The notes beneath the pieces are model-generated. The model ran no database searches and was not told the DNA's origin. It worked only from the letters and a program-made list of their open reading frames with translations. Both the position numbers and the translations under genes were made by a program. Shown here piece by piece: positions 18,665 to 51,800 of a stretch of 64,000 nt of DNA (its first letter is position 1; the number at the start of each line of letters is the position of its first letter). Source of the stretch: Burkholderia metallica (GTDB taxonomy: Bacteria; Pseudomonadota; Gammaproteobacteria; Burkholderiales; Burkholderiaceae); assembly GCF_902832845.1 (NCBI RefSeq), contig NZ_CADFDB010000002.1, positions 186,001-250,000 on the forward strand, in the 5' to 3' direction.

Positions 18665-19303
18665 TCAATGCGGCAGCCCGAACGCGGCCTTCAGGCTCGC
18701 GACGATCATCTGCATCGCGATCGCCGCGAGAATCATCCCCATCAGCCGTTGCGTCACCGCCGTCACGCGCGGCGACAGGTAATGGCCGATCAACGGTGCC
18801 GACAGCAACGACACGGTCAGCAGCACGAGAAACGCGGCGAGCCCGAGCGCGAACGCGGGTTCCTGCCCGGTCGAGAATGCGTTGTGCCCGAGCACGATCA
18901 TCGTCGCGATCGTGCCGGGGCCCACGAGTAGCGGAATCGTCAGCGGATAGATCGCGACGCTTTCGGCCGCGGCCGGGTCGGCGCCCTCGTCGTCGCCCGG
19001 CGAATGCTGGCGGCTCGGCGTGCCGTGCAGCATCGACAGCGCGATCAGGAGCACCAGCAGCCCGCCCGCGAGACGAAAATCGTCGATCGTCAGGCCGAAC
19101 ACGTGCAGGATAGCGCCGCCCGCGACGGCCGATACGATGCAGCCGACCGTCACGCCGATCGACGCGGTCAGCGCGACCTTGCGGCGCACGCCGTCCGCCG
19201 CGCCTTCCGTCAGCGACAGGAACACCGGAATGTTCGCGATCGGGTTCATGATCGCGAACAGCGCGGCGAATACCTTGATGGCAAAGGTCAGGTCGAAGGC
19301 CAC
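18665..19303 (-). CDS. MarC-family integral membrane protein
   Basis: The 212-residue protein carries the family signature near its N-terminus (FAALFAIMNPIANIPVFLSL) and six predicted membrane helices. The second half includes IPLLVGPGTIATMIVLG, another MarC hallmark. I choose a GTG start at 19,303, with a GGGAG site, because the family begins close to this point and upstream codons look non-coding. MarC proteins lie in the inner membrane and their substrate is unproven. A hydrophilic loop rich in Asp and Glu lies around residues 100-115. Confidence 0.85.
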   Translation of the reverse strand: MAFDLTFAIKVFAALFAIMNPIANIPVFLSLTEGAADGVRRKVALTASIGVTVGCIVSAVAGGAILHVFGLTIDDFRLAGGLLVLLIALSMLHGTPSRQHSPGDDEGADPAAAESVAIYPLTIPLLVGPGTIATMIVLGHNAFSTGQEPAFALGLAAFLVLLTVSLLSAPLIGHYLSPRVTAVTQRLMGMILAAIAMQMIVASLKAAFGLPH

Positions 19304-40463: not shown

Positions 40464-40901
40464 CTATGCGCGGTTCGGCTGCCAGTTGTCCGGGATCACC
40501 GCGATTACGTCGATTTCCATCAGCCACTGCGGCTGGCCGAGCGCGGACACGACGAGCCCCGTCGAGATCGGGTACACGCCCTTCAGCCACTTGCCGACTT
40601 CCTGGTACACGGGCTCGCGATAGCGCGGGTCGATCAGGTAGGTCGTCGTCTTCACGATGTGCGTGAGGTCGCTGCCGGCTTCTTCCAGCAACTGCTTCAC
40701 GTTCTTCATCGCCTGCTCGGCCTGCGCGCGCGGATCGCCGAGGCCGGTCAGGTTGCCGTCGAAATCGGTGCCGACCTGGCCGCGCACGTAGACGGTGTTG
40801 CCAGCCCGCACGGCCTGGCACAGGTCGTTGTCGAGCGTCTGGTTCGGGTAGGTATCCTTCGTGTTGAACATGCGGATACGGGTATGGGTCGGTTCGCTCA
40901 T
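40464..40901 (-). CDS. Rid-superfamily protein without the catalytic Arg
   Basis: The 145-residue protein has the YjgF/YER057c/UK114 fold (VRAGNTVYVRGQVGTDFDGN, QAEQAMKNVKQLLEEAGSDL, HIVKTTTYL). RidA enzymes that deaminate enamines or imines carry an Arg in a PARS motif; here the matching segment is YPISTGLVV with Ile112. It is therefore unlikely to be a classical RidA and fits better with the Rid subgroups found in catabolic operons. The N-terminus is extended by about 20 residues. It lies between the FMO gene (75-nt gap) and DUF1028. Confidence 0.85.
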   Translation of the reverse strand: MSEPTHTRIRMFNTKDTYPNQTLDNDLCQAVRAGNTVYVRGQVGTDFDGNLTGLGDPRAQAEQAMKNVKQLLEEAGSDLTHIVKTTTYLIDPRYREPVYQEVGKWLKGVYPISTGLVVSALGQPQWLMEIDVIAVIPDNWQPNRA

Positions 40902-40976
40902 CGAAATCCTTCAGTCGTCAAGGGTCGCGCCGCCGCACCGGGCACGAACGCGGTGCGGCTGGCGGCAGGGGTCCGT

Positions 40977-42317
40977 TCAGTTCACCGCATCGGCAAGCGG
41001 CTGCGCGTCGGCGCGCGACACGCCGCCGTCCTGCGCCGCGGCCGACGTCGCGCGGCGCTGCGATGCGTCGTGGTATTCGAGGTAGGTGCGCTGTATCGCG
41101 ATGTGATCGGCGATGTGCCGCGCGTCGTGCCACACGCCCCAGATGAAGCTGGAGCCGCGCCGCGACAGCCACGGCAGCCCGAGGAAATAGATGCCCGGCT
41201 CCTTCGACACGCCGCGCTGATGCTGCGGCTTGCCGTCGTCGGCGAATGCGTCGACCTTCAGCCAGTCGTAGTCGACCGCATAGCCCGTCGCCCAGACGAT
41301 CGACGTGACGCCCGCGCCGGCGAGGTCGAGCGCGAGAATCGGATGCGCGACACATTCCGGGTTCGGCAGGATGCGGCGGGCCTCCGGTTCTTCCGGCAGG
41401 TCGAGGCCGTTACGCGCCGCATAGGCGTCGGCCGCGTCGAGCAGCGACAGGTAGTTCTCGTCGCCGCGTGCGAGATTGATCGCCAGATCGCGTTCGAACA
41501 CGGCCACGCCGCCGTCGAACGATTTCGTCAGCCCGACGAGCGTCACGCCCTGGTTCGCGAGCCGGCGGAAATCGACCGTATGGCCGCCGCGCGCGCCGCT
41601 TACCGCGATCGTCACGTGTTCGCGGCCGGGCGTCGCGACTTCCTTGTCCCATTCGCCGAGCACGCCGAGCCACCAGCAGAAGTCGCGGCCGCGATACGCG
41701 CGCGGCGGGCGATCGTGCGGGCCGACCGACAGGTACACCTGCCGGCCCGCGCGCTGCAGTTCGTCGGCAATCTGCACACCCGACGAACCCGCGCCGACCA
41801 CCAGTACCGCGCCGTCCGGAAGCTGGCCCGGGTTGCGGTAGTCGGCGGAATGGATCTGCACGAGGCGCGCGTCGTCCGGCGCGATCGGCGGAATCACCGG
41901 GCGCTGGAACGGCCCCGTCGCGACGACCACGCGGTTCGCCTCGATCGTGCCGTCGGACGTCTCGACGACGAAACCCGGCTTGCCCGTATTGCGCACGACC
42001 TTCTTCACCTCGACGCCCGTACGGATCGGCGCGTTGAACTTGCGCGCATACGCTTCGAAGTAGTCGGCGACCTGGTCTTTCGACGCGAACGCATCGGGAT
42101 CGAGGCCGTCGAATTCGAGGCCGGGGAAGCGGTCGTGCCACGCGGGGCCGTTCGCGACCAGCGAATCCCAGCGCCCCGTGCGCCAGCGCTCGGCGATGCG
42201 GCTGCGCTCCAGCACGAGATGCGGCACGCCCAGCTTGCCCAGGTGCTCACTCATCGCCACGCCGGCCTGACCGGCGCCGACGACGAGCGTATCGATTGAC
42301 GTTGTTTCGACTGCCAC
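40977..42317 (-). CDS. flavin-containing monooxygenase-like protein
   Basis: The 446-residue protein has an FAD motif (TLVVGAGQAGVAMSEHLGKL), a second Rossmann motif for NADP (VLVVGAGSSGVQIADEL) and ATGYAVDYDWLKV near the end, as in class B FMOs. HSADYRNPGQL occupies the place of the FMO fingerprint in variant form. It probably hydroxylates a nitrogen or carbon of a small substrate. It heads the FMO-Rid-DUF1028-M20 operon. The ATG has a GGAGACAGCC site. The region upstream (42,318-42,623) is intergenic. Confidence 0.87.
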   Translation of the reverse strand: MAVETTSIDTLVVGAGQAGVAMSEHLGKLGVPHLVLERSRIAERWRTGRWDSLVANGPAWHDRFPGLEFDGLDPDAFASKDQVADYFEAYARKFNAPIRTGVEVKKVVRNTGKPGFVVETSDGTIEANRVVVATGPFQRPVIPPIAPDDARLVQIHSADYRNPGQLPDGAVLVVGAGSSGVQIADELQRAGRQVYLSVGPHDRPPRAYRGRDFCWWLGVLGEWDKEVATPGREHVTIAVSGARGGHTVDFRRLANQGVTLVGLTKSFDGGVAVFERDLAINLARGDENYLSLLDAADAYAARNGLDLPEEPEARRILPNPECVAHPILALDLAGAGVTSIVWATGYAVDYDWLKVDAFADDGKPQHQRGVSKEPGIYFLGLPWLSRRGSSFIWGVWHDARHIADHIAIQRTYLEYHDASQRRATSAAAQDGGVSRADAQPLADAVN

Positions 42318-42623: not shown

Positions 42624-43223
42624 CTATACGCCTTTCTTGTCCAGCAGGGCCTGATACTTCTGCAGGCTCTCGTCGATCCTGTCGAGCGCGACGCTCGCGG
42701 CCTCGCCTTCGATCGCTTCCGCGGCACCCGCGACGATCGCCGCGGTCGCCACGAACAGATCGGTCAACAGCAGACCCACCGCATCCATCGCCATCCCGCG
42801 CACGTTCTCGTCGACGGTCTTCTGCGCCAGATCCTTCATCAGTACGCTCTTGCCCGCGATCGCCAGCGACGTCGTCGCCTCGAAGTAGTTGGCCGCCGCC
42901 TGCGCGACCATCCCGCCCGCCTGCGTGATCAACATGTTCGGGCCGACGGCGATCTGCGTCGTCGCATAGGACGCCGCCTCCGCATTGATCGCCTGCACGG
43001 TCTGCAGCGCGGAGCCGCCCGACCCGGCCGCACCGGCGACCGGGTCGGGCGCTTTCAGCGCATCGGTGAACCGGCGCAGCCGGCTCACCGGCCACGCGCG
43101 CGCGCCGGCCTTCGGTGTCCCGGCCGGCGTCGTGGCTTCGACTGCGGCGTCCGCGTCCGTGACGGCGTCCGGCGTCTGCGTCGCACCGTCGCCGCGTCCG
43201 CCCAAAAGACCTTTCATGTTCAT
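42624..43223 (-). CDS. R-body-locus protein of unknown function (199 aa)
   Basis: The protein begins MNMKGLLGGRGDGATQTPDA with a disordered N-terminus (about 1-70). A helical, Ala-rich domain follows (LQTVQAINAEAASYATTQIA, GGMVAQAAANYFEATTSLAI, KSVLMKDLAQKTVDENVRGM). The pattern of small and amide residues resembles a diverged RebB domain, but I cannot assign it firmly. Two ATGs 6 nt apart are possible starts, and neither has a strong ribosome binding site. It is the last gene of the sigma factor-rebB-orf unit, so it probably belongs to the R-body system. Confidence 0.65.
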   Translation of the reverse strand: MNMKGLLGGRGDGATQTPDAVTDADAAVEATTPAGTPKAGARAWPVSRLRRFTDALKAPDPVAGAAGSGGSALQTVQAINAEAASYATTQIAVGPNMLITQAGGMVAQAAANYFEATTSLAIAGKSVLMKDLAQKTVDENVRGMAMDAVGLLLTDLFVATAAIVAGAAEAIEGEAASVALDRIDESLQKYQALLDKKGV

Positions 43224-43252
43224 GGTTCACGTATCCCGAGAGTCATCGCGAC

Positions 43253-43570
43253 CTAATGCGCCGAACCCGTCTGCGGCCCGGCCGCCGGAACCTGCGGCAA
43301 GCCGCCCGATCCGCCACCCGTCCCACCGCCCGACGCGCTCTTCGGCGACGCTTCGACGGACAGGATCATCGCCACCGCCTTCGACACGACGGCGTTCGAA
43401 ATCTGGTTCAGCGCGGCCTGCTGCTGCGTCATGTTCTGCGCCGAGATGCCGACCGCCTGGCTGAACATCTGGTAAAGCGTACCCAGCGCCTGGGCCGGAG
43501 ATCCCGCGACGACGTTGACGTTGGTCTGTGTCACCGCGTCGGTAATCTGCTCATTGACTTTGTCTGCCAC
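43253..43570 (-). CDS. RebB-family R-body protein (copy 1)
   Basis: The 105-residue protein contains the RebB core NEQITDAVTQTNVNVVAGSP followed by LGTLYQMFSQAVGISAQNMT. R-body proteins polymerise into coiled ribbons that can extend abruptly. The start is GTG at 43,570, with a GAGGAGGCCTC site; there is no ATG in the right place. The C-terminus is a Gly/Ser/Pro-rich tail (about 80-105) missing from the other three copies. It lies 114 nt downstream of the sigma factor gene and 29 nt upstream of the 199-aa gene. Confidence 0.88.
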   Translation of the reverse strand: MADKVNEQITDAVTQTNVNVVAGSPAQALGTLYQMFSQAVGISAQNMTQQQAALNQISNAVVSKAVAMILSVEASPKSASGGGTGGGSGGLPQVPAAGPQTGSAH

Positions 43571-43684
43571 GAGGCCTCCTCGGATCTCGGCTCCGGCATG
43601 CGATTGAAGGAACGGACGGGCCGGCAGGCCAGCGACGCCGCACATGCCGTTAGGAACGCTGCATACCCGCGTTCGTGAACGTGC

Positions 43685-44242
43685 TTACGCGAGTTCGTCG
43701 CGCAACTTCTTGCGCAACAGCTCGACGCGCTTTCTGGCGAGCGGTTCGTTGATCCCGAGCGCCGCCGCGATGTGCAGGTAGGACCGGTCCTCCTCGAACT
43801 TCAGCGTGAACAGCATCTGCTGCTGAGGTGGCAGCGTGGACAACGCGTGCTGCAGACGCAGCAACTGCTGTCGAAGCAGCAGTTGCTGCTCCACCGACGG
43901 CGCGTGACCCGCCAGCTCGACGATATGGTCGTCGTCCCAGCCCGGGTCGAATTCGAGCATGCCGCGCTCGCGCAACCGGCGCCGCGCGCCGTCGAGGAAG
44001 GCGTGATTCAGCACCAGAAAGAGAAAACCGGAGAGGTTCTGAACGCGCTCCGGCGAGCGCTGCAGGTAAATGTGGACCTTGAGTGCGGTATCGGAGAGCA
44101 GGTCGTCCGCGCGGTGAATATCGCCCTTGCATAACAGGCGCGCGCGGCGCCGCAATTTCCCCTGCATTTCCCGCCACGTGCGATCGAGCTGCTGCGCCGG
44201 AGACTCGGGCGTCGCGGCAGCGTGCTGGTTCGAGGTTGTCAT
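43685..44242 (-). CDS. ECF-like sigma factor of the R-body locus
   Basis: The 185-residue protein has a sigma-70 region 2 (DDLLSDTALKVHIYLQRSPE, LSGFLFLVLNHAFLDGARRR) and a region 4 HTH (LSTLPPQQQMLFTLKFEEDR, SYLHIAAALGINEPLARKRV). This is the layout of ECF sigma factors. No anti-sigma gene is adjacent. Sigma factors accompany reb genes in other bacteria, including Pseudomonas aeruginosa, so it is the likely activator of the reb genes. Two perfect palindromes lie 59-84 nt upstream and may be its control sites. Confidence 0.88.
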   Translation of the reverse strand: MTTSNQHAAATPESPAQQLDRTWREMQGKLRRRARLLCKGDIHRADDLLSDTALKVHIYLQRSPERVQNLSGFLFLVLNHAFLDGARRRLRERGMLEFDPGWDDDHIVELAGHAPSVEQQLLLRQQLLRLQHALSTLPPQQQMLFTLKFEEDRSYLHIAAALGINEPLARKRVELLRKKLRDELA

Positions 44243-44649
44243 CCCGTGTCTTCCTTTTTCATGGAAAACACAGAATCGATTCGACGCCGGGAATGGCGCT
44301 GTTACCCGTGTAACACCGTTATAACGATAATCGGTTTCGGTAAATTTTCTTGATTATTATGAACGGAATTTTCAATTCCCCGGTATTGCCCGATCCGTTG
44401 TTTCAGGTGCGTCGCCGGACCTGAATATCGGCATTGCGATGAAAAAGAACGACTGCCGCCACGACGTGTTCGCTGGCCGGCATGCCGCTATCCATGCCGA
44501 TCGACCCAGCGCCGTTGCCGCCGAAGTGCCGCCCTGTACGGACTGCTGGCCGATTATCTCGATACTTTCATTTTTCTTTTTTCACGCAATGCCGAAGACA
44601 GCGTTTTTCGCTAGGTGGTCGTATCGTCAAACAACCTCGCGCGGAAAAC
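44243..44649. promoter_or_regulatory. divergent sigma factor/Crp-Fnr control region (407 nt)
   Basis: The region is far more AT-rich than its neighbours. Besides the two palindromes it holds TTGATTATTATGAA (44,350-44,363), which matches the first half and spacing of the FNR consensus TTGATN4ATCAA but only part of the second half. It probably contains promoters for both flanking genes. Confidence 0.45.
44301..44326. promoter_or_regulatory. two adjacent perfect palindromes upstream of the sigma factor gene
   Basis: GTTACCCGTGTAAC (44,301-44,314; 5-bp arms, 4-nt spacer) is followed after 2 nt by CGTTATAACG (44,317-44,326; 10-bp palindrome). They lie in a sharply AT-enriched stretch between the sigma factor gene and the Crp/Fnr gene. 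The spacing and shape suit dimeric regulators. Confidence 0.5.
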
Positions 44650-45324
44650 ATGCCTGCCCTTGCTAACGCTCAGACGCTGCGCAATATACCGATACTCACC
44701 GACCTCCCGGAAAGCCTGATCGCTCACGTGGAGCGCCATGTCACGCCGTGGCCCGAACACGGCAATCGCCTGTTGTTCTTCAAGGGCGATCCGGGTGATT
44801 TCGTCGCGTTCGTGCACTGCGGACGCGTCTACAAGACGCTGCACGAACCCGGCGGACGCGAGATCATCCTCGGTCACTCGATGCCGGGCGAACTCATCGG
44901 CGAGAACACGCTGATCCGCGCACACCGGCGCAACTTCACGGCCCAGTTGAGCGCCGACTGCCGCATCTCGCTGCTGCATCGCCCGTATTTCGCGCCGCTG
45001 CTGGCCAACGCGGAATTCATGGGGCGCATCCACGAGCAGCTGTGCCGGCACATCCACCAGTTGAGCGACTTCGTCGAATCGGCATGCCTGTACCGGCTCG
45101 AAGCGAGGCTCGCGCGCCATCTGCTGAACCGCATGCAAGGGAATGATCTCGAGGTGCCGCTGCCGGAGAACCAGAGCGTCCTCGCGGCGATGCTCAACGT
45201 CAGCCGGCCGCGACTGAACAGCAGCCTGCAGAAGATGCAGCGCGACGGCCTGATCCGGCTTCACGAACACGGCGTGACGATCGAGAAGCCGGAACTGCTC
45301 CGGACCATCGTCGACGCCAATTGA
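44650..45324 (+). CDS. Crp/Fnr-family transcriptional regulator in the R-body locus
   Basis: The 224-residue protein has a cyclic-nucleotide-like sensor domain (FFKGDPGDFVAFVHCGRVYK, LGHSMPGELIGENTLIRAHR), a dimerisation helix and a C-terminal HTH (NQSVLAAMLNVSRPRLNSSL, QKMQRDGLIRLHEHGVTI). The four N-terminal cysteines of FNR are absent, so it does not hold an FNR-type iron-sulphur cluster; the ligand is unknown. The ATG at 44,650 has a poor GCGGAAA site. It lies between two groups of reb genes and on the other strand, so it is a good candidate regulator of the locus. Confidence 0.88.
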   Translation: MPALANAQTLRNIPILTDLPESLIAHVERHVTPWPEHGNRLLFFKGDPGDFVAFVHCGRVYKTLHEPGGREIILGHSMPGELIGENTLIRAHRRNFTAQLSADCRISLLHRPYFAPLLANAEFMGRIHEQLCRHIHQLSDFVESACLYRLEARLARHLLNRMQGNDLEVPLPENQSVLAAMLNVSRPRLNSSLQKMQRDGLIRLHEHGVTIEKPELLRTIVDAN

Positions 45325-45406
45325 CGGCCGGGCACGCACGAGCGTCGTGCGGTGCCGCGGCGCGGGGGAAAGCGCGGGCGCCGGATCGGGCGGCGCGCGG
45401 GGAGGA

Positions 45407-45730
45407 TCAGCCGCGCCAATGGCCGATCGCGTTCAGCAGTTGCGCGACCGCGGACAGTTGTGACGCAAAGCTGTCGTTCGCCGAGCGCGCGGCGCCGGCC
45501 GCCGCCGCCGGCGAGCCGGCATAGAGCTGCATGACGCCGACGGTCGTGGCGGCGAGGTTGGACATGGCCTGGTTCGCCTGCATCTGCACCGCGTTGTGCA
45601 GCAGGATCGCGGAGGCGTGGCTGTTCGACTGCATGAGCGTGCCCAAGGCCACGGCGGGCGCCTCGCCCACCACCTTGACGTTGGATTGCGTGACCGCATC
45701 GGTCACCGCGGCGGAAACCTGTTCCGGCAT
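45407..45730 (-). CDS. RebB-family R-body protein (copy 2)
   Basis: The 107-residue protein reads MPEQVSAAVTDAVTQSNVKV followed by VGEAPAVALGTLMQSNSHAS, the RebB signature. The second half is helical and Ala/Ser rich, ending LLNAIGHWRG. A CCAGGAGCAACGAC site precedes the ATG. It is the last gene of the second reb unit. It lacks the N-terminal cysteines of copies 3 and 4 and is more diverged from them than they are from each other. Confidence 0.9.
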   Translation of the reverse strand: MPEQVSAAVTDAVTQSNVKVVGEAPAVALGTLMQSNSHASAILLHNAVQMQANQAMSNLAATTVGVMQLYAGSPAAAAGAARSANDSFASQLSAVAQLLNAIGHWRG

Positions 45731-45851
45731 GTCGTTGCTCCTGGTTGGCTCGCCGCTGCGGTGCAGTCACGGCGAAAGCATGAGTGGGTCGGTCGGCGAC
45801 GCCCCGCCGCACGGGCCGTCGATGCTGTGCGCGCATCGACACGACATCGGG

Positions 45852-45890
45852 CGCCGGGCGGCGGCCACCGATCGGGGCCGCCGCCCGGCG
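45852..45890 (-). terminator. 15-bp perfect stem-loop between reb copies 2 and 3
   Basis: CGCCGGGCGGCGGCC at 45,852-45,866 pairs perfectly with GGCCGCCGCCCGGCG at 45,876-45,890 around a 9-nt loop, 18 nt past the stop of copy 3. No U-tract follows on the minus strand. It may end most transcripts or protect the upstream mRNA and so set the ratio of Reb subunits. Confidence 0.55.
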
Positions 45891-45908
45891 TCGACGCCAG
45901 CCTGCGCG

Positions 45909-46265
45909 TCAGACAAGCGCCTTGCCGAGCGCGAGCACGTCGGCCAGTACGGACAGCACGCCGTTCGAGCCGATTTCCGTCGAGGCGGCGCCTGCGCTCG
46001 CCGGCCCGAGCGTGTACAGCTGCATCGTGCCCACGTTCGTCGAGGTCGGCAGTTGCACCGCCGACTGCGACTGCTGCTGTACCGCGTTCTCGAACAGCAC
46101 GCTGAGCGAATGGCTCTGGGCCTGGTACAACGAGCCCGTTGCCATCGCCGGCGCTTCGCCGACCACCTTGACGTTGGTTTGCGTGACCGCGTCGGTGATC
46201 GCGGCGTTCACCGCGCACGTCTTGCAGTTGCACGGGTCTTTCAGGTCATCTGCGTTATCTGCCAT
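45909..46265 (-). CDS. RebB-family R-body protein (copy 3)
   Basis: The 118-residue protein begins with a short Cys-bearing leader (MADNADDLKDPCNCKTCAVN) before the RebB core AAITDAVTQTNVKVVGEAPA, then MATGSLYQAQSHSLSVLFEN. The tail (STEIGSNGVLSVLADVLALG) is nearly the same as in copy 4. The ATG at 46,265 has a CAGGAGAAATACG site. The three cysteines in CNCKTC could form disulfides that stabilise the ribbon; that is an inference. Confidence 0.92.
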   Translation of the reverse strand: MADNADDLKDPCNCKTCAVNAAITDAVTQTNVKVVGEAPAMATGSLYQAQSHSLSVLFENAVQQQSQSAVQLPTSTNVGTMQLYTLGPASAGAASTEIGSNGVLSVLADVLALGKALV

Positions 46266-46381
46266 CGTATTTCTCCTGATTCGCGAACAGGCGCCGCATC
46301 GAATCGGCTCTGCCCGTTCTGTCGTTTGCTCCGGAACACCGCGCGGCACCGCTGTTCAGGCGCCGGCGGCCATGCGGGGCC

Positions 46382-46415
46382 GCGGCACGGCGGCGGCGTT
46401 GGCGGCGCGTGCCGC
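46382..46415 (-). repeat. stem-loop between reb copies 3 and 4
   Basis: GCGGCACG at 46,382-46,389 pairs with CGTGCCGC at 46,408-46,415 across a GC-rich 18-nt loop. It lies about 40 nt past the stop of copy 4. No T-run follows. Its role could be mRNA processing or stability. Confidence 0.4.
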
Positions 46416-46452
46416 TTGCGCCGCCGTTCAACCACGGCGTTGCGATGGCACG

Positions 46453-46785
46453 TCAGCCCTTGACGGCCTTCCCGATCGCGATCACGTCGGCCAGAATCGA
46501 GATGATCCCGTTCGCGCCGATTTCCGTGGCGGCCGCGCCCGCGCTTTCCGGCCCGATCGTGTAGAGCTGCATCGTCCCCACGTTCGTCGACGTCTGCGAC
46601 TGGATCGCGGCCTGCGACTGCTGCTGCACCGCGTTCTCGAACAGGATGCTGAGCGAATGGCTCTGGGCCTGGTACAGCGAGCCCATCGCCATTGCCGGCG
46701 CTTCCGCGACCACCTTGACGTTGACCTGTGTGACCGCATCGGTAATCGCGGGATTCACCTGGCACACTTGACACGTATCAGCCAT
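46453..46785 (-). CDS. RebB-family R-body protein (copy 4)
   Basis: The 110-residue protein (MADTCQVCQVNPAITDAVTQ, VNVKVVAEAPAMAMGSLYQA) has the full RebB core and a C-terminus ending DVIAIGKAVKG. It shares most positions with copy 3, so the two arose by duplication, and it has two leader cysteines (CQVC). An AAGGAGCTAC site precedes the ATG. It follows the 218-aa gene by 81 nt. Confidence 0.92.
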   Translation of the reverse strand: MADTCQVCQVNPAITDAVTQVNVKVVAEAPAMAMGSLYQAQSHSLSILFENAVQQQSQAAIQSQTSTNVGTMQLYTIGPESAGAAATEIGANGIISILADVIAIGKAVKG

Positions 46786-46866
46786 TTGTAGCTCCTTGGT
46801 TCACGTAGTTGAGAGATCGCACATCGGGGGCCGGCCGGTCTCGTTTTCTGCCGAATAACCCGCGTG

Positions 46867-47523
46867 CTACTCCATGGACGCTGCGCCGCGGGTATCGTGA
46901 ACGGTCGTGACGACGGCGATGGGCAGTTCGGGCGCGTCGGAAGGTTCGGCCGGGGCGTCGGCGGCGCTGCGCAGCCGTGCCTCCATCGCGTCGAGCCGCG
47001 CGGAGAGCCGTTCGGCGAGCGAATCGACGTATTGCCGGAAGCAGGCGTCGATTTCCTGCCGGATCAGGCCGGTCAACTGTTCGCCGATCATCGCCAGCGC
47101 CTCGCGGGTGCTGTCCTGGATCTCGGCCGCGGCACCGGCCTGCGCGTCGCCGTCGCCCGACGGCTCGTTCGCGTCGAGCACGCCCGCCACTTTCCGCTGT
47201 TCCGACGCCAGCATGCCGAGCGTCGTCTCGTTCTGTGCGTCGATCGTCTGGAGGATGCCGCGCATCTTCTCGTACGCCTTCTGCTGGTTGAGCTGCAGGA
47301 AGTGCTTGATCTGTTCGCGCGCTTCCTGCCGGGTTTTCAACTGCGGCAACGGCCGGTTCGCGGCGGGCGCCGGCGCGGCCGTGCCGGCGGCCGTCGCCGG
47401 CGGATTTCCGTGCCTGCCCGACAGTTGGTCCAGCAGCGCCTGTTCTTCGGCCGGCGCGAGGGGCCGCCCCAATCGCTTCTCCGCGAGCTGCCGCAGCAGC
47501 GGGTCGAGTGCGTCTTGGCTCAT
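46867..47523 (-). CDS. coiled-coil protein at the head of the reb unit (218 aa)
   Basis: The protein starts MSQDALDPLLRQLAEKRLGR and has a Pro/Ala-rich linker (about 38-60). Long amphipathic helices follow (QKAYEKMRGILQTIDAQNET, ALAMIGEQLTGLIRQEIDAC) that look like coiled coils. There is no membrane segment or signal. I know of no function; its place directly before two reb genes on the same strand suggests an assembly, scaffold or regulatory role in R-body formation. The start follows GAGGTAAGCC and is 3 nt from the stop of a 34-codon frame upstream. Confidence 0.75.
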   Translation of the reverse strand: MSQDALDPLLRQLAEKRLGRPLAPAEEQALLDQLSGRHGNPPATAAGTAAPAPAANRPLPQLKTRQEAREQIKHFLQLNQQKAYEKMRGILQTIDAQNETTLGMLASEQRKVAGVLDANEPSGDGDAQAGAAAEIQDSTREALAMIGEQLTGLIRQEIDACFRQYVDSLAERLSARLDAMEARLRSAADAPAEPSDAPELPIAVVTTVHDTRGAASME

Positions 47524-47526
47524 GGC

Positions 47527-47631
47527 TTACCTCGTCTCGAAGTCCGCCCGCGGCGCCGGTGCGTGCGGGCGGGGAGCGGACGGACGCCGTGCGGCGGTGC
47601 GCCGGTCGGCAGGCTGCAATGGATATCGCAT
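47527..47631 (-). CDS. putative 34-aa basic small protein at the head of the reb unit
   Basis: A 34-codon frame (MRYPLQPADRRTAARRPSAP, then Pro/Arg-rich, ending ADFETR) has a strong CGGGAGAACACC site. Its stop lies 3 nt before the start of the 218-aa gene. This arrangement suggests a translated leader or small protein coupled to the next gene. The Arg/Pro-rich composition is also what random GC-rich DNA gives, so coding is uncertain. Confidence 0.45.
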   Translation of the reverse strand: MRYPLQPADRRTAARRPSAPRPHAPAPRADFETR

Positions 47632-48071
47632 GGTGTTCTCCCGGAAATGGACGTGCGATGGCCTGACCGGAAATTCGGCAGGACCGCTGCAGGGACGAAC
47701 CGTGAGACGAGTCTGTGAAATCGGGCTCCGCGTGCGCGGTGCGCGCCGATGGCGGGTCAGCGATACGTGTGGTGGGCGTGCGGCGAGGACGGCGGGTAGA
47801 AAGGAATACATTTCGCGGACATGCCGTGTCGCGCGAAAGGTCGATTTCTATATGCGTGCGTGCCGCGACACCGGATGGCCGGATCGGGAAATTCGGCGGC
47901 GCGCACGATGCGTTGCGCGACGCGCGAATGCGATTCCAGCGGTTGCGCGGGCATCGGAATCACGTCGCCGACATAGTGGAAGGAGATGCGGCCGTCCTCG
48001 GGCATCAGGCCAGGGCGACCCCGATCGAACGGTTCGTCCTGCCGGGAATGCATCGGCGCCTGCGTGTAATT
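47632..48071. other. 440-nt region upstream of the reb unit
   Basis: It must hold the promoter of the 47,631-45,407 unit. A 98-codon minus-strand frame (47,757-48,053, starting MHSRQDEPFDRGRPGLMPED) is open but has no family match I know and no clear ribosome binding site. I leave it uncalled. Confidence 0.35.
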
Positions 48072-49268
48072 TCATGCGAAGTGACGTTCGGCGGCCGGAT
48101 ATTTCAATTGTGCGAGCCAGTAGCCGCCGACCGGCGCGGCGGTCGTTTCCGCCTGCGGGGGAACGGCAACCTGCGGCTTCTCCGGCAGCATGGCGCCATC
48201 GGGCACGTGCGCGCGGCCCGTACGCAGCGACACGGGATGGGCAGCGGGCTTGGCCGGCGACACCGGCGCGGACGTCACGGCCTTCGCCGCGTCGATCAAC
48301 GTCTCCTTGTTGCCGTCCCACTTGGGCAGTCTGGCGGGCGGCAGCGGCACGACCTTGTCGAGATTGGGCAGACGCAGGTCGGGATCGCGCTCGAGGCGAT
48401 CGGCAAGGACGCTGTAGCGCTCGGCGCGGGCACGATCCTTCACGCTCCCCGCTATAGGATCGCCGTCATCGAACGCACCGAACAGATATGCAGCACTCTT
48501 AGCGCTACCGTACTTCACGCCCTCATGCAGAATCTTGAGTGCTCGCACATTGTCCTCGTCCATCGACTTGTCGGTGCCGACCAGTGTCGTTCCAAGCGCG
48601 TACGCGGCATCTCCGTTGCCCTGGGCGACGCCGCATTCGAGCATTTTGAGCGCAATCTTTCGATTCCCCCAGAAACCGGATTTCGGATCATCGTAGGCGG
48701 CGTCGAGCTTGTTGCCCAAGTACGCCATGGCGCTGGGGCTGCCCTTGTCCGCTGCAAGTTGCCGGAAGGCATAAGCACGACTGGCATCCTGCTTGACGCC
48801 CACTCCGTTCATGTAATACGCGCCCATCAGATCGTAGGCCGCGGGGATGCCCAGCTTTATCGCCTCTTCGGTGATCTGCACGGCGCGTTCGGTATTGCGA
48901 TCCACGCCCACCCCCTGGGCATACGCATTCGCCAGATTCAGCATCGCCTTCCAGTGCTTGCGCTCGGCCGCCTTCGTCCACAAGTCGACAGCGCCCTTGT
49001 AGTCGCGCTGGTTCGGCCACAACAATGCACCCGTCATCTTCATCGCCTGCTGATTCCAGCGATCCGCCTCGGGATCGATTGCCGGAACCACGGCGGCTTC
49101 GTGCACGCAAACGAACGTCTCGCGATGCGGATTGAAAGCGTCGAGCGACATGTTTCGCGGAAGAGAATCGTGCATCGAGCAGGCGGCACATGCGAGGAAC
49201 AGGCAAGCAGAAAATAACCGGGGCAATCCGATACGGTTGGCGGAGGTCGAACACAATTGATTTAGCAC
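48072..49268 (-). CDS. Sel1-repeat putative lipoprotein (398 aa)
   Basis: An N-terminal hydrophobic segment (LPRLFSACLFLACAACS) ends in cysteines, consistent with a signal peptide and possible lipid attachment, though the lipobox is not perfect. Sel1-type repeats follow (AAERKHWKAMLNLANAYAQG, ITEEAIKLGIPAAYDLMGAY, QLAADKGSPSAMAYLG; about 85-260). A Pro/Ala-rich C-terminus ends AQLKYPAAERHFA. Proteins like this are often found near type VI secretion effector genes in Burkholderia, but no secretion gene is in this window. It lies at the start of a stretch with lower GC. Confidence 0.82.
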   Translation of the reverse strand: MLNQLCSTSANRIGLPRLFSACLFLACAACSMHDSLPRNMSLDAFNPHRETFVCVHEAAVVPAIDPEADRWNQQAMKMTGALLWPNQRDYKGAVDLWTKAAERKHWKAMLNLANAYAQGVGVDRNTERAVQITEEAIKLGIPAAYDLMGAYYMNGVGVKQDASRAYAFRQLAADKGSPSAMAYLGNKLDAAYDDPKSGFWGNRKIALKMLECGVAQGNGDAAYALGTTLVGTDKSMDEDNVRALKILHEGVKYGSAKSAAYLFGAFDDGDPIAGSVKDRARAERYSVLADRLERDPDLRLPNLDKVVPLPPARLPKWDGNKETLIDAAKAVTSAPVSPAKPAAHPVSLRTGRAHVPDGAMLPEKPQVAVPPQAETTAAPVGGYWLAQLKYPAAERHFA

Positions 49269-51212: not shown

Positions 51213-51800
51213 ATGTCGAATGTACGGACTGTCTTGAAGGCCCTTTCTGTAGCATTGGCCGCAGGTGCCTTGCTCTGTGGCGCGGCAGCGTCTCGGGCGG
51301 CTTCTGATAATGCCAGCCCGAGCGCAAATGGAGCGGTCGCACACGAGCTCTTCGATAAGGGAGACGACTATTTTTGGGTCTTGGTGCGCAATCCAAAAAA
51401 TGACGGCTACCAATGTTCAATCAGTTTCGTGACCCCCAATGGAACATATTCAATTCATGGTCCAATGGATGCGGAAATGGCAAAGTCGGGGTCCGGAATG
51501 TTGTGGTTCGAAAGTCCGCGTATTCCAAAGACCGCTGACTCGACGCGGCGCGTGATGCTCGCTGTTCGTGGGAATGACGGCACGTTCAACTGGCCTGCCC
51601 TGCAGACTACCATCGGGAATAAGTCAAACGGCACGCTTATGGTTGCCGTGAAAATCATGTCGGTGCTGAAGGAAAAAGCGGACACGAACAACCTTTCGGT
51701 TTCTCTCGCCGGTAACGAGGTGTTCAAGGCCAAGCTGGTCGGACTGCAGGCGGCCTATGCGCGGCTCGCCGGATGTATGGCGGAACATTCGGGAAGCTAG
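51213..51800 (+). CDS. exported hypothetical protein (195 aa)
   Basis: A clear signal peptide (MSNVRTVLKALSVALAAGAL, cleavage near AASRA-AS) directs export to the periplasm. The mature protein is beta-rich with two cysteines (GYQCSISFVTPNGTYSIHGP and RLAGCMAEH) that could form a disulfide. The ATG at 51,213 has an AGGTGG site. I do not recognise a family. Its size, export and presence beside a lipoprotein in a low-GC island fit periplasmic immunity or adhesion accessory proteins, but nothing in the sequence proves this. Confidence 0.7.
   Translation: MSNVRTVLKALSVALAAGALLCGAAASRAASDNASPSANGAVAHELFDKGDDYFWVLVRNPKNDGYQCSISFVTPNGTYSIHGPMDAEMAKSGSGMLWFESPRIPKTADSTRRVMLAVRGNDGTFNWPALQTTIGNKSNGTLMVAVKIMSVLKEKADTNNLSVSLAGNEVFKAKLVGLQAAYARLAGCMAEHSGS

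Follow-up and report, generated by a model that had tools for sequence, protein, structure and literature searches.

What switches on an R-body (reb) locus that carries a sigma factor and a Crp/Fnr-type regulator of its own? R-bodies are protein ribbons, coiled up until they spring open. The question is raised by a cassette of Burkholderia metallica found in a stretch of 64,000 nucleotides (contig NZ_CADFDB010000002.1, positions 186,001 to 250,000; hereafter the window), where it spans positions 42624-47719; the contig has 623,771 bases and the draft genome 7.55 Mb. In Pseudomonas aeruginosa PA14, rebP1 is expressed in 0.26% of cells, with striations that are perhaps heritable (PMC8322103). 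The accessible text of that paper (Wang et al. 2021) does not settle why a fraction of a percent of cells make R-bodies or how the regulators interlink, and the paper contains none of the words feedback, bistab and motif; in its accessible part PMC13390426, found under R-bodies and bistability, merely cites the 0.26% figure. We consider it likely that the cassette is a Group 2 R-body locus under a self-reinforcing two-gene switch of the sigma factor and the Crp-type protein, and that its reb1 and reb2 subunits have gained cysteine tails. Published work is cited here from the accessible part of each paper.

Gene set of the cassette and its predicted sigma/Crp switch

Eight genes and a leader open reading frame (ORF) make up the cassette (Table 1). 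In order of transcription, the minus strand carries the leader ORF, the gene of a 218-amino acid protein (HPb), reb1, reb2 and reb3, followed by the sigma factor gene, rebD and the gene of a 199-amino acid protein (HPa), and the crp gene is placed on the plus strand between reb3 and the sigma gene. A sequence-only reading of the window had described a complete reb locus with its own sigma factor and Crp/Fnr regulator, and this part of it stood. In a hidden Markov model (HMM) search, all four short proteins that it had assigned to R-bodies match the Pfam family RebB (PF11747), with 75-84 bits against a cut-off of 24; they are the sole RebB matches in the whole draft genome and include the two near-duplicates that it had noticed (78% identity). 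The extracytoplasmic function (ECF)-like sigma factor, the Crp/Fnr protein without the FNR cysteines and the 199- and 218-amino acid proteins are likewise present as it had described them. Two gene limits were corrected: the fourth Reb (rebD, whose PF11747 score comes from a scan with a short upstream extension) most likely starts at the GTG at 43570, which has a strong ribosome-binding site, and not at the upstream ATG, and the former right-hand limit of the locus, 47631, is the start of the 34-codon leader ORF. To that reading the present analysis adds the promoter elements and their proposed feedback wiring, the tails with cysteines and the recognition of the leader ORF as such.

The sigma protein is over the cut-off for TIGR02937 and Sigma70_r4_2 and just below it for Sigma70_r2 (22.7 against 24). 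It belongs to the ECF class (regions 2 and 4 only), and no anti-sigma gene is found among the eight genes of the cassette. In the Crp/Fnr protein both the cNMP-type domain and the Crp helix-turn-helix are matched, the N-terminal cysteine cluster of FNR is absent (zero cysteines in residues 1-50), and the closest solved chain (7pza, E 1.4e-15) is named as a putative cAMP-binding type.

Two sets of loci were compared with the window. The first contains 24 further Burkholderia loci with a recognisable cassette (L032-L055): 21 of them (L032-L052) are complete, with the same eight genes collinear, and together with the window give 22 complete cassettes; L053 has lost the sigma gene, rebD and reb2, plus parts of crp and reb3, L054 is cut by a contig end, and L055 has crp inverted. 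The second was obtained by scanning named genomes with the HPa alignment, which gave 39 loci: 12 Burkholderia cassettes (L067-L078, in B. lata, B. arboris, B. cepacia, B. anthina, B. paludis, B. catarinensis, B. ubonensis and others), which are 12 of the 21 complete loci and were counted once, and 27 others (L079-L105) from Paraburkholderia, Trinickia, Chromobacterium, Paludibacterium, Dyella, Lysobacter, Pseudomonas, two divergent Burkholderia and two metagenome-assembled genomes (MAGs). Since they were chosen by HPa, the 27 loci carry no information on HPa frequency. Profiles built from the Burkholderia cassettes find the sigma factor, Crp and RebD in all 27.

An unprompted search for any pair of a 5-mer and a 4-mer separated by 15-17 bp, in the 350 bp upstream of the module genes of these 27 loci, returned TTCAC-N16-CGTT as the best pair, present in 25 of 27 loci, whereas the best pair in shuffled sequence reached 9. 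A scan for the exact element gave 56 cases distributed over 27/27 loci (1.95 expected from shuffles), none of them farther than 400 bp from the module span, which precede crp, rebD, reb, HPb and some other genes. The element stands before crp in 18 of the 27 loci, counted by position; several crp starts in these loci were called too long, and some nearest-gene labels (L079, L087, L103) are wrong. Shuffles in both the search and the scan keep base composition only, whereas those of the test on held-out loci shuffle two-base blocks. In that test, TTCAC-N16-CGT(T/C) was found 72 times in the 21 Burkholderia cassettes (2.05 expected) and 11 times in eight other Burkholderiaceae loci (L107-L109, L111-L114 and L117; 0.35 expected), three of which (L111, L112 and L113) duplicate the discovery loci L093, L080 and L081; the five truly new loci hold seven cases, with at least one in each.

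In each of the 22 cassettes, the element TTCAC-N16/17-CGT(T/C) precedes crp, rebD and reb1 with N16 and the leader ORF/HPb with N17, the motif of the 27 other loci being mostly N16. Four Burkholderia reb loci with no sigma or crp hits have zero elements in 31 kb (0.30 expected), and the remnant loci L059 and L061 have zero as well. Among loci of the phylum sample, the five short ones with no sigma hit in their 3.2 kb show zero elements at N16 and a single one at N17 between them; of the three with a distant sigma factor, two have one element each. A further N17 match lies in the window outside the cassette, at 51627, and several cassettes show one or two extra matches to the loose pattern. A first guess at the element, TTCACA-N17-CGTC, taken from the alignment before the HPb gene, was only partly right and gave way to the form found by the unprompted search. 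In two Paraburkholderia modules, a sigma element past the end that carries crp (L100:12383 and L104:12309) points to a further possible target gene.

The palindrome GTnAC-N4-GTnAC is located 57-59 bp before the sigma start in 22/22 cassettes. It is also found, exact, before the sigma gene in 18 of the 27 other loci, where 3 of the 21 exact boxes lie elsewhere. The window has a second exact box at 18753; the fetched stretches of L032-L052 hold no other copy, so none is present before reb there.

A sigma element before crp and a Crp box before the sigma gene together suggest a mutual-activation loop. The sigma factor would recognise its element before crp, rebD, reb1 and the leader ORF/HPb, the Crp-type protein would bind the palindrome before the sigma gene, and thus sigma would drive crp and Crp would drive sigma. 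As each regulator would raise the other, a rare cell that crosses the threshold would lock on and make ribbons of the Group 2 kind, most cells staying off. Such a loop would explain the stochastic R-body expression of PA14, where both regulators are needed (PMC8322103). Further support comes from RebR of Azorhizobium caulinodans, a Crp-Fnr protein that activates reb through a palindrome with the 5-4-5 layout of the cassette box (PMC5527310), and from the invariant codons over the reb1 promoter described below. We infer binding by both regulators, its direction, the bistability and ribbon formation from the sequence of these loci.

The same elements could also be arranged in a one-way cascade, from a ligand through the Crp-type protein and the sigma factor to reb, in which the element before crp would be minor and expression graded instead of locked. 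It would agree with the Crp box before the sigma gene, which is the best-placed element, and with A. caulinodans, in which RebR acts directly on reb with temperature-dependent activation and a second protein represses (PMC5527310). We consider such a cascade unlikely, since every complete cassette has an exact sigma element before crp, as do, by position, two-thirds of the other loci, and PA14 expression is seen as single bright cells among dark ones (PMC8322103).

Several points weigh against a mutual-activation loop that locks. The exact box is absent in 9 of the 27 other loci; judged post hoc, seven of these carry a copy with one mismatch close to the sigma start, and the remaining two carry a two-mismatch palindrome. 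Seven Dyella/Lysobacter-type loci have crp behind the reb genes with no exact sigma element of its own. In the window taken alone, the sigma pattern was found twice (0.46 expected; 9 of 100 shuffles reach 2) and the box also twice (0.60 expected; 11 of 100 shuffles reach 2); as neither element is beyond chance there, the argument is comparative, and the loci behind it are partly related. Positive feedback, in addition, need not give bistability. RebR of A. caulinodans binds GT(A/G)(A/C)C-N4-G(T/G)(T/C)AC (PMC5527310), from which the cassette box departs in the third base of each arm. Finally, the motif of the PA14 sigma factor FecI2 is printed as a logo (PMC4362757), which may or may not agree with TTCAC-N16-CGTT.

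Cysteine tails of the Reb subunits

According to the published rule, cysteines are rare in Reb proteins and none has a second one (PMC13430693). In the cassettes, Reb1 shows an N-terminal C-x2-C in 25/25 and Reb2 shows C-x-C-x2-C in 20/22 and C-x2-C in the other two; the corresponding second Reb copy of L054 and L055 also has C-x2-C. Distinct Reb ORFs were counted in the named loci, a part of those that exist, and the N-terminal CxxC was present in 46 of 95 from cassettes against 0 of 168 from other loci. Of the remaining cassette proteins, 45 are cysteine-free and, by the raw count, three have one cysteine and one has at least two elsewhere; the non-cassette proteins comprise 139 without cysteine, 28 with one and one with two, the last in a broken frame of L117. 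Within L079-L105, 82 of 86 Reb ORFs lack cysteine, and the other four are RebD proteins with cysteines before the probable start.

A tree of 85 Reb rows, taken from 25 chosen loci and 73 columns wide, whose bootstrap had not settled, needs one gain for the CxxC proteins (support 91/91) and shows reb3 of the same cassette as the sister of this clade (90/93), with the window rebD in the RebD branch. Identical proteins were merged in it, so the window reb1 has no row of its own. Because conserved ribosome-binding sites precede the reb1 and reb2 starts, the cysteine tails are not artefacts of start-codon choice. In the window RebD (43253-43350) a Gly/Ala-rich C-terminal tail is present, which is absent from four RebD rows of other genera in one alignment.

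With their two or three N-terminal cysteines, Reb1 and Reb2 contradict the generalisation as published and narrow it, RebB membership being unaffected; they also suggest a trigger other than pH. The tails gained by reb1 and reb2 of the Burkholderia lineage could cross-link the ribbon or bind metal, a step that we regard as the weakest of the explanation. Instead, they may be neutral ornaments or metal binders for folding only, with ribbon opening driven by pH as in Caedibacter, for which low pH is the given trigger (PMC8322103). We put this at slightly below an even chance: the published Reb analysis sees no disulfide role (PMC13430693), and apart from its cysteines the tail varies between cassettes in both length and sequence, but CxxC is retained in 25/25 Reb1 and 22/22 Reb2 despite the changing neighbour residues. 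A search of the open-licence literature on R-body cysteines and disulfides turned up PMC13430693 alone.

Distribution, partner proteins and related modules

RebB is present in 33 of 65 species genomes of the genus, HPa in 28 and HPb in 26. All 28 HPa genomes and all 25 with a near-full HPb bear RebB. Five RebB-bearing genomes lack both HPa and HPb, and the 32 RebB-less genomes show HPa in none and HPb in one (G011), as a 27-residue remnant. In G014, the HPa match and its single RebB are on different contigs. RebB was found in 30 of 299 genomes of the family sample (29 over the cut-off) and in 11 of 398 of the phylum sample (10 over the cut-off).

The absence of RebB from nearly half of the genus species, and remnants such as L053 (internal loss), L059 (HPa gene only) and L061 (27 residues of the HPb gene), would suit a fading relic whose reb genes are kept by linkage and make no ribbon. 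This is highly improbable in our view: in the window and its 21 relatives each of the eight genes is intact and shows purifying selection (median pairwise dN/dS of 0.15-0.35 per gene over 22 loci), and the promoter elements are conserved. The decayed cassettes L053, L059 and L061 are in their own right signs of repeated loss in the genus.

Among near-complete assemblies (at most four contigs; 13 of 24), the cassette is on a replicon of 0.85-1.4 Mb in eight and of 3.4-3.9 Mb in five. The small replicon is chromosome 3 in two named records and is present in PLSDB as two records (1.26 and 0.88 Mb); we take it to be the pC3 megaplasmid of the cepacia complex, and no paper joining R-bodies with pC3 was found in the open-licence literature. 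The neighbours of the cassette in the window (40464-42317 and 48072-49268) encode a flavin-dependent oxidoreductase (FMO), a RidA-family protein and a Sel1-repeat/DUF6396 protein. The FMO/RidA flank adjoins the cassette in 10 of the 21 complete loci, is 4 kb off in one more (L075), is absent in six (9-kb flanks) and was not seen within the approximately 3 kb fetched in four. Its differing flanks place the cassette in more than one neighbourhood, and it probably moves as a unit.

Table 1. Features of the reb cassette, with positions in the window
Feature	Position	Strand	Evidence
HPa, 199-aa RapA/S4-type protein (probable)	42624..43223	-	28/65 genus genomes, all RebB-bearing; place behind rebD
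rebD-type RebB-family protein, GTG start, 105 aa	43253..43570	-	PF11747 75.8 bits; RebD branch 97/99
Predicted sigma-dependent promoter of rebD, TTCAC-N16-CGTT	43655..43679	-	22/22 cassettes, 2 of them ending CGTC
ECF-type sigma factor (FecI2 position)	43685..44242	-	TIGR02937 3.8e-16; Sigma70_r4_2 1.1e-10
Palindrome GTTAC-N4-GTAAC, predicted Crp-type box of sigma gene	44301..44314		22/22 cassettes, 18/27 other loci
Predicted sigma-dependent promoter of crp, TTCAC-N16-CGTT	44581..44605	+	22/22 cassettes, starts 69 bp before gene
Crp/Fnr-type regulator (RcgA/RebR-like position)	44650..45324	+	HTH_Crp_2 6.9e-13; cNMP_binding 1.6e-11
reb3, RebB-family subunit without cysteine	45407..45730	-	PF11747 75.3 bits
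reb2, RebB-family subunit, N-terminal C12-x-C14-x2-C17	45909..46265	-	PF11747 79.6 bits
reb1, RebB-family subunit, N-terminal C5-x2-C8	46453..46785	-	PF11747 83.8 bits
HPb, 218-aa helical protein, probable HP2.2-type partner	46867..47523	-	co-occurrence with RebB; AlphaFold2 helical hairpin
Predicted sigma-dependent promoter of reb1, TTCAC-N16-CGTC, inside 3' end of HPb gene	46877..46901	-	22/22 cassettes
Leader ORF, 34 codons (MRYPLQ...)	47527..47631	-	stop 3 nt before HPb gene
Predicted sigma-dependent promoter of leader ORF/HPb, TTCAC-N17-CGTC	47694..47719	-	22/22 cassettes

Neither HPa nor HPb has a Pfam or NCBIfam match above the cut-off, and PHROG gave none for either at E 0.01. The N-terminus of HPa is variable and rich in Pro and Ala, and a near-invariant core begins at about residue 73; in all named loci with labels for both genes, HPa directly follows rebD. 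This place and its extended N- and C-terminal regions agree with the description of RapA, which is Reb group S4 (PMC13430693). Comparison of the HPa family with the Reb profile (hhalign) gave no more than a suggestive match at the expected place, with a probability below 3%, and 4 of 200 column shuffles scored equally high; the same comparison of the HPb family found nothing. The AlphaFold model of HPa is poor (mean pLDDT 55), and that of HPb reaches a mean pLDDT of 76, with helices at about 90, predicting a hairpin of long helices (residues 65-118 and 129-189), a pair of short helices at the N-terminus and loose ends. The HPb model has no PDB match under E 0.001, and the HPa, Reb and HPb family profiles match no PDB sequence better than E 0.25. 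Judged by place, size, company and relatives, HPa is probably of the RapA/S4 type and HPb of the HP2.2 type. From Pfam, conservation and the PA14 work, reb1-3, RebD, the RapA-type protein and HPb would build or dress the ribbon, and the place and company of HPb suggest a ribbon-associated or assembly role.

The C-terminal tail of HPb, VHDxxxxASME, was set aside as a conserved protein motif, as it overlaps the reb1 promoter: the codons over the promoter boxes GTTCAC and GCGTCC are invariant in 25/25 loci and those between them vary, so conservation of the tail is due, at least in part, to constraint on the DNA. The leader ORF, which may be a leader peptide or a small protein, begins with MR in 19 of 22 cassettes and leaves there exactly 3 nt between its stop and the ATG that follows, the other three differing; it has 34 codons in 17 of the 19, 36 in one and 21 in one.

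In the 27 other loci a common gene order is crp-sigma-rebD-HPa-(other genes)-HPb-reb-reb. HPb was found in 22 of them, 21 by profile and L099 by clustering, and is missing in L091, L092, L094, L105 and L103, the last of which ends at a contig edge. Most of the extra genes fall between HPa and HPb, a place that is empty in the window, and one or a few representatives of each group were scanned. They encode a phage-type lysozyme in nine loci (PF00959 6.8e-48; PHROG endolysin), an esterase in 11 (polyhydroxybutyrate (PHB)-esterase match just below the cut-off), a patatin-type phospholipase in two, Bestrophin-like membrane proteins in seven, partly between sigma and rebD, and small proteins of holin-like size in six, with no match; no paper joining R-body, holin and reb was found in the open-licence literature. 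The sigma element immediately precedes the small-protein gene of L079 and the esterase gene of L085. A protein of 711-767 amino acids is encoded behind the RapA-type gene in eight loci (L091, L092, L094, L096-L098, L101 and L102) of Dyella, Lysobacter-type and Pseudomonas hosts; Pfam gave no match for three of the copies, and for that of L101 there was no PHROG match and none in PDB better than E 0.15. Its HSHxxGILP and HIHxGEG stretches resemble, we presume, those of metal-dependent hydrolases.

Other genes were also observed in these modules. In L079-L089, from Paraburkholderia, Trinickia, Chromobacterium and a Rhodocyclales MAG, lysozyme, esterase, small-protein and phasin-sized genes are found between HPa and HPb, some of them preceded by the sigma element. 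Two divergent Burkholderia have a 213-amino acid protein between sigma and rebD (L056:3328-3969, L103 and L105), the L056 copy having no Pfam match. In Chromobacterium, L082:6201-7403 encodes two adjacent DUF2589 proteins between sigma and rebD, from groups present in six loci.

Although none is found in the window, the extra genes inside the other reb modules are the best lead to a released factor, and those that the sigma element precedes in the reb loci of other genera are candidates for the killing factor sought since Caedibacter. A wider reading, doubtful as a whole, would join a bistable sigma/Crp switch across several families, a ribbon thiol- or metal-gated through the CxxC/CxCxxC tails of two subunits in one Burkholderia lineage and a sigma-commanded payload of variable enzymes (lysozyme, esterase and others) in the related loci; if true, redox or metal state, and not pH alone, would decide when the ribbon springs.

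Comparison with known R-body systems

Group 2 reb loci carry two hypothetical proteins of about 205-220 amino acids and often a sigma factor and a cyclic-nucleotide-type regulator (Raymann 2013, PMC3583457). All four partner kinds (HP2.1, HP2.2, the sigma factor HP2.3 and the regulator HP2.4) are present in the Burkholderia cassette, with 199 and 218 residues for the first two; the sigma factor and the regulator are beside reb, and HPa and HPb were found only with reb, the HPb remnant of G011 being the sole trace in a RebB-less genome of the genus. By its sequence, the locus fits the published Group 2 synteny and its gene set is of a known kind; the two flanking proteins, which the sequence-only reading had offered as possible new parts of the system, match the published partner kinds instead. 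This likeness of HPa and HPb rests on size, place and company, and the accessible Raymann account gives no promoter elements. Burkholderia is among the genera with reb genes in at least 10 species (PMC13430693), and no test of role or trigger in this genus was found in the open-licence R-body literature.

RebB-family subunits are common to the cassette and rebA-D of Caedibacter taeniospiralis (type 51 R-body). The accessible passages mention no sigma/Crp pair for that species, and Raymann 2013 found no RebC homologue outside it (PMC3583457). The reb operon of A. caulinodans has a Crp-Fnr activator, RebR, and a 5-4-5 palindrome with GT..C arms, as here; the box is before reb itself and PraR represses, whereas the Burkholderia box is before the sigma gene, and that paper nowhere uses the term "sigma factor" (PMC5527310).

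In PA14, RapA is found together with R-bodies, and the rebP1 promoter requires both the sigma factor FecI2 and the regulator RcgA (PMC8322103). The predicted elements mapped here turn the PA14 wiring question into a direct reporter test. Against the Pseudomonas relative L101, whose proteins are not those of PA14, identities over the aligned parts are 45% for the sigma factor, 42% for Crp and 48% for the RapA-type protein. The PA14 cluster (rcgA, fecI2, rebD, rapA and rebP1P2) has the same gene kinds as the Burkholderia cassette, namely regulator, sigma factor, RebD, RapA and paired RebB-type subunits; the cassette differs from it in the divergent crp, the three RebB-type subunits, the cysteine tails, the lack of genes between the RapA-type gene and the HPb gene, and the permuted order of these two.

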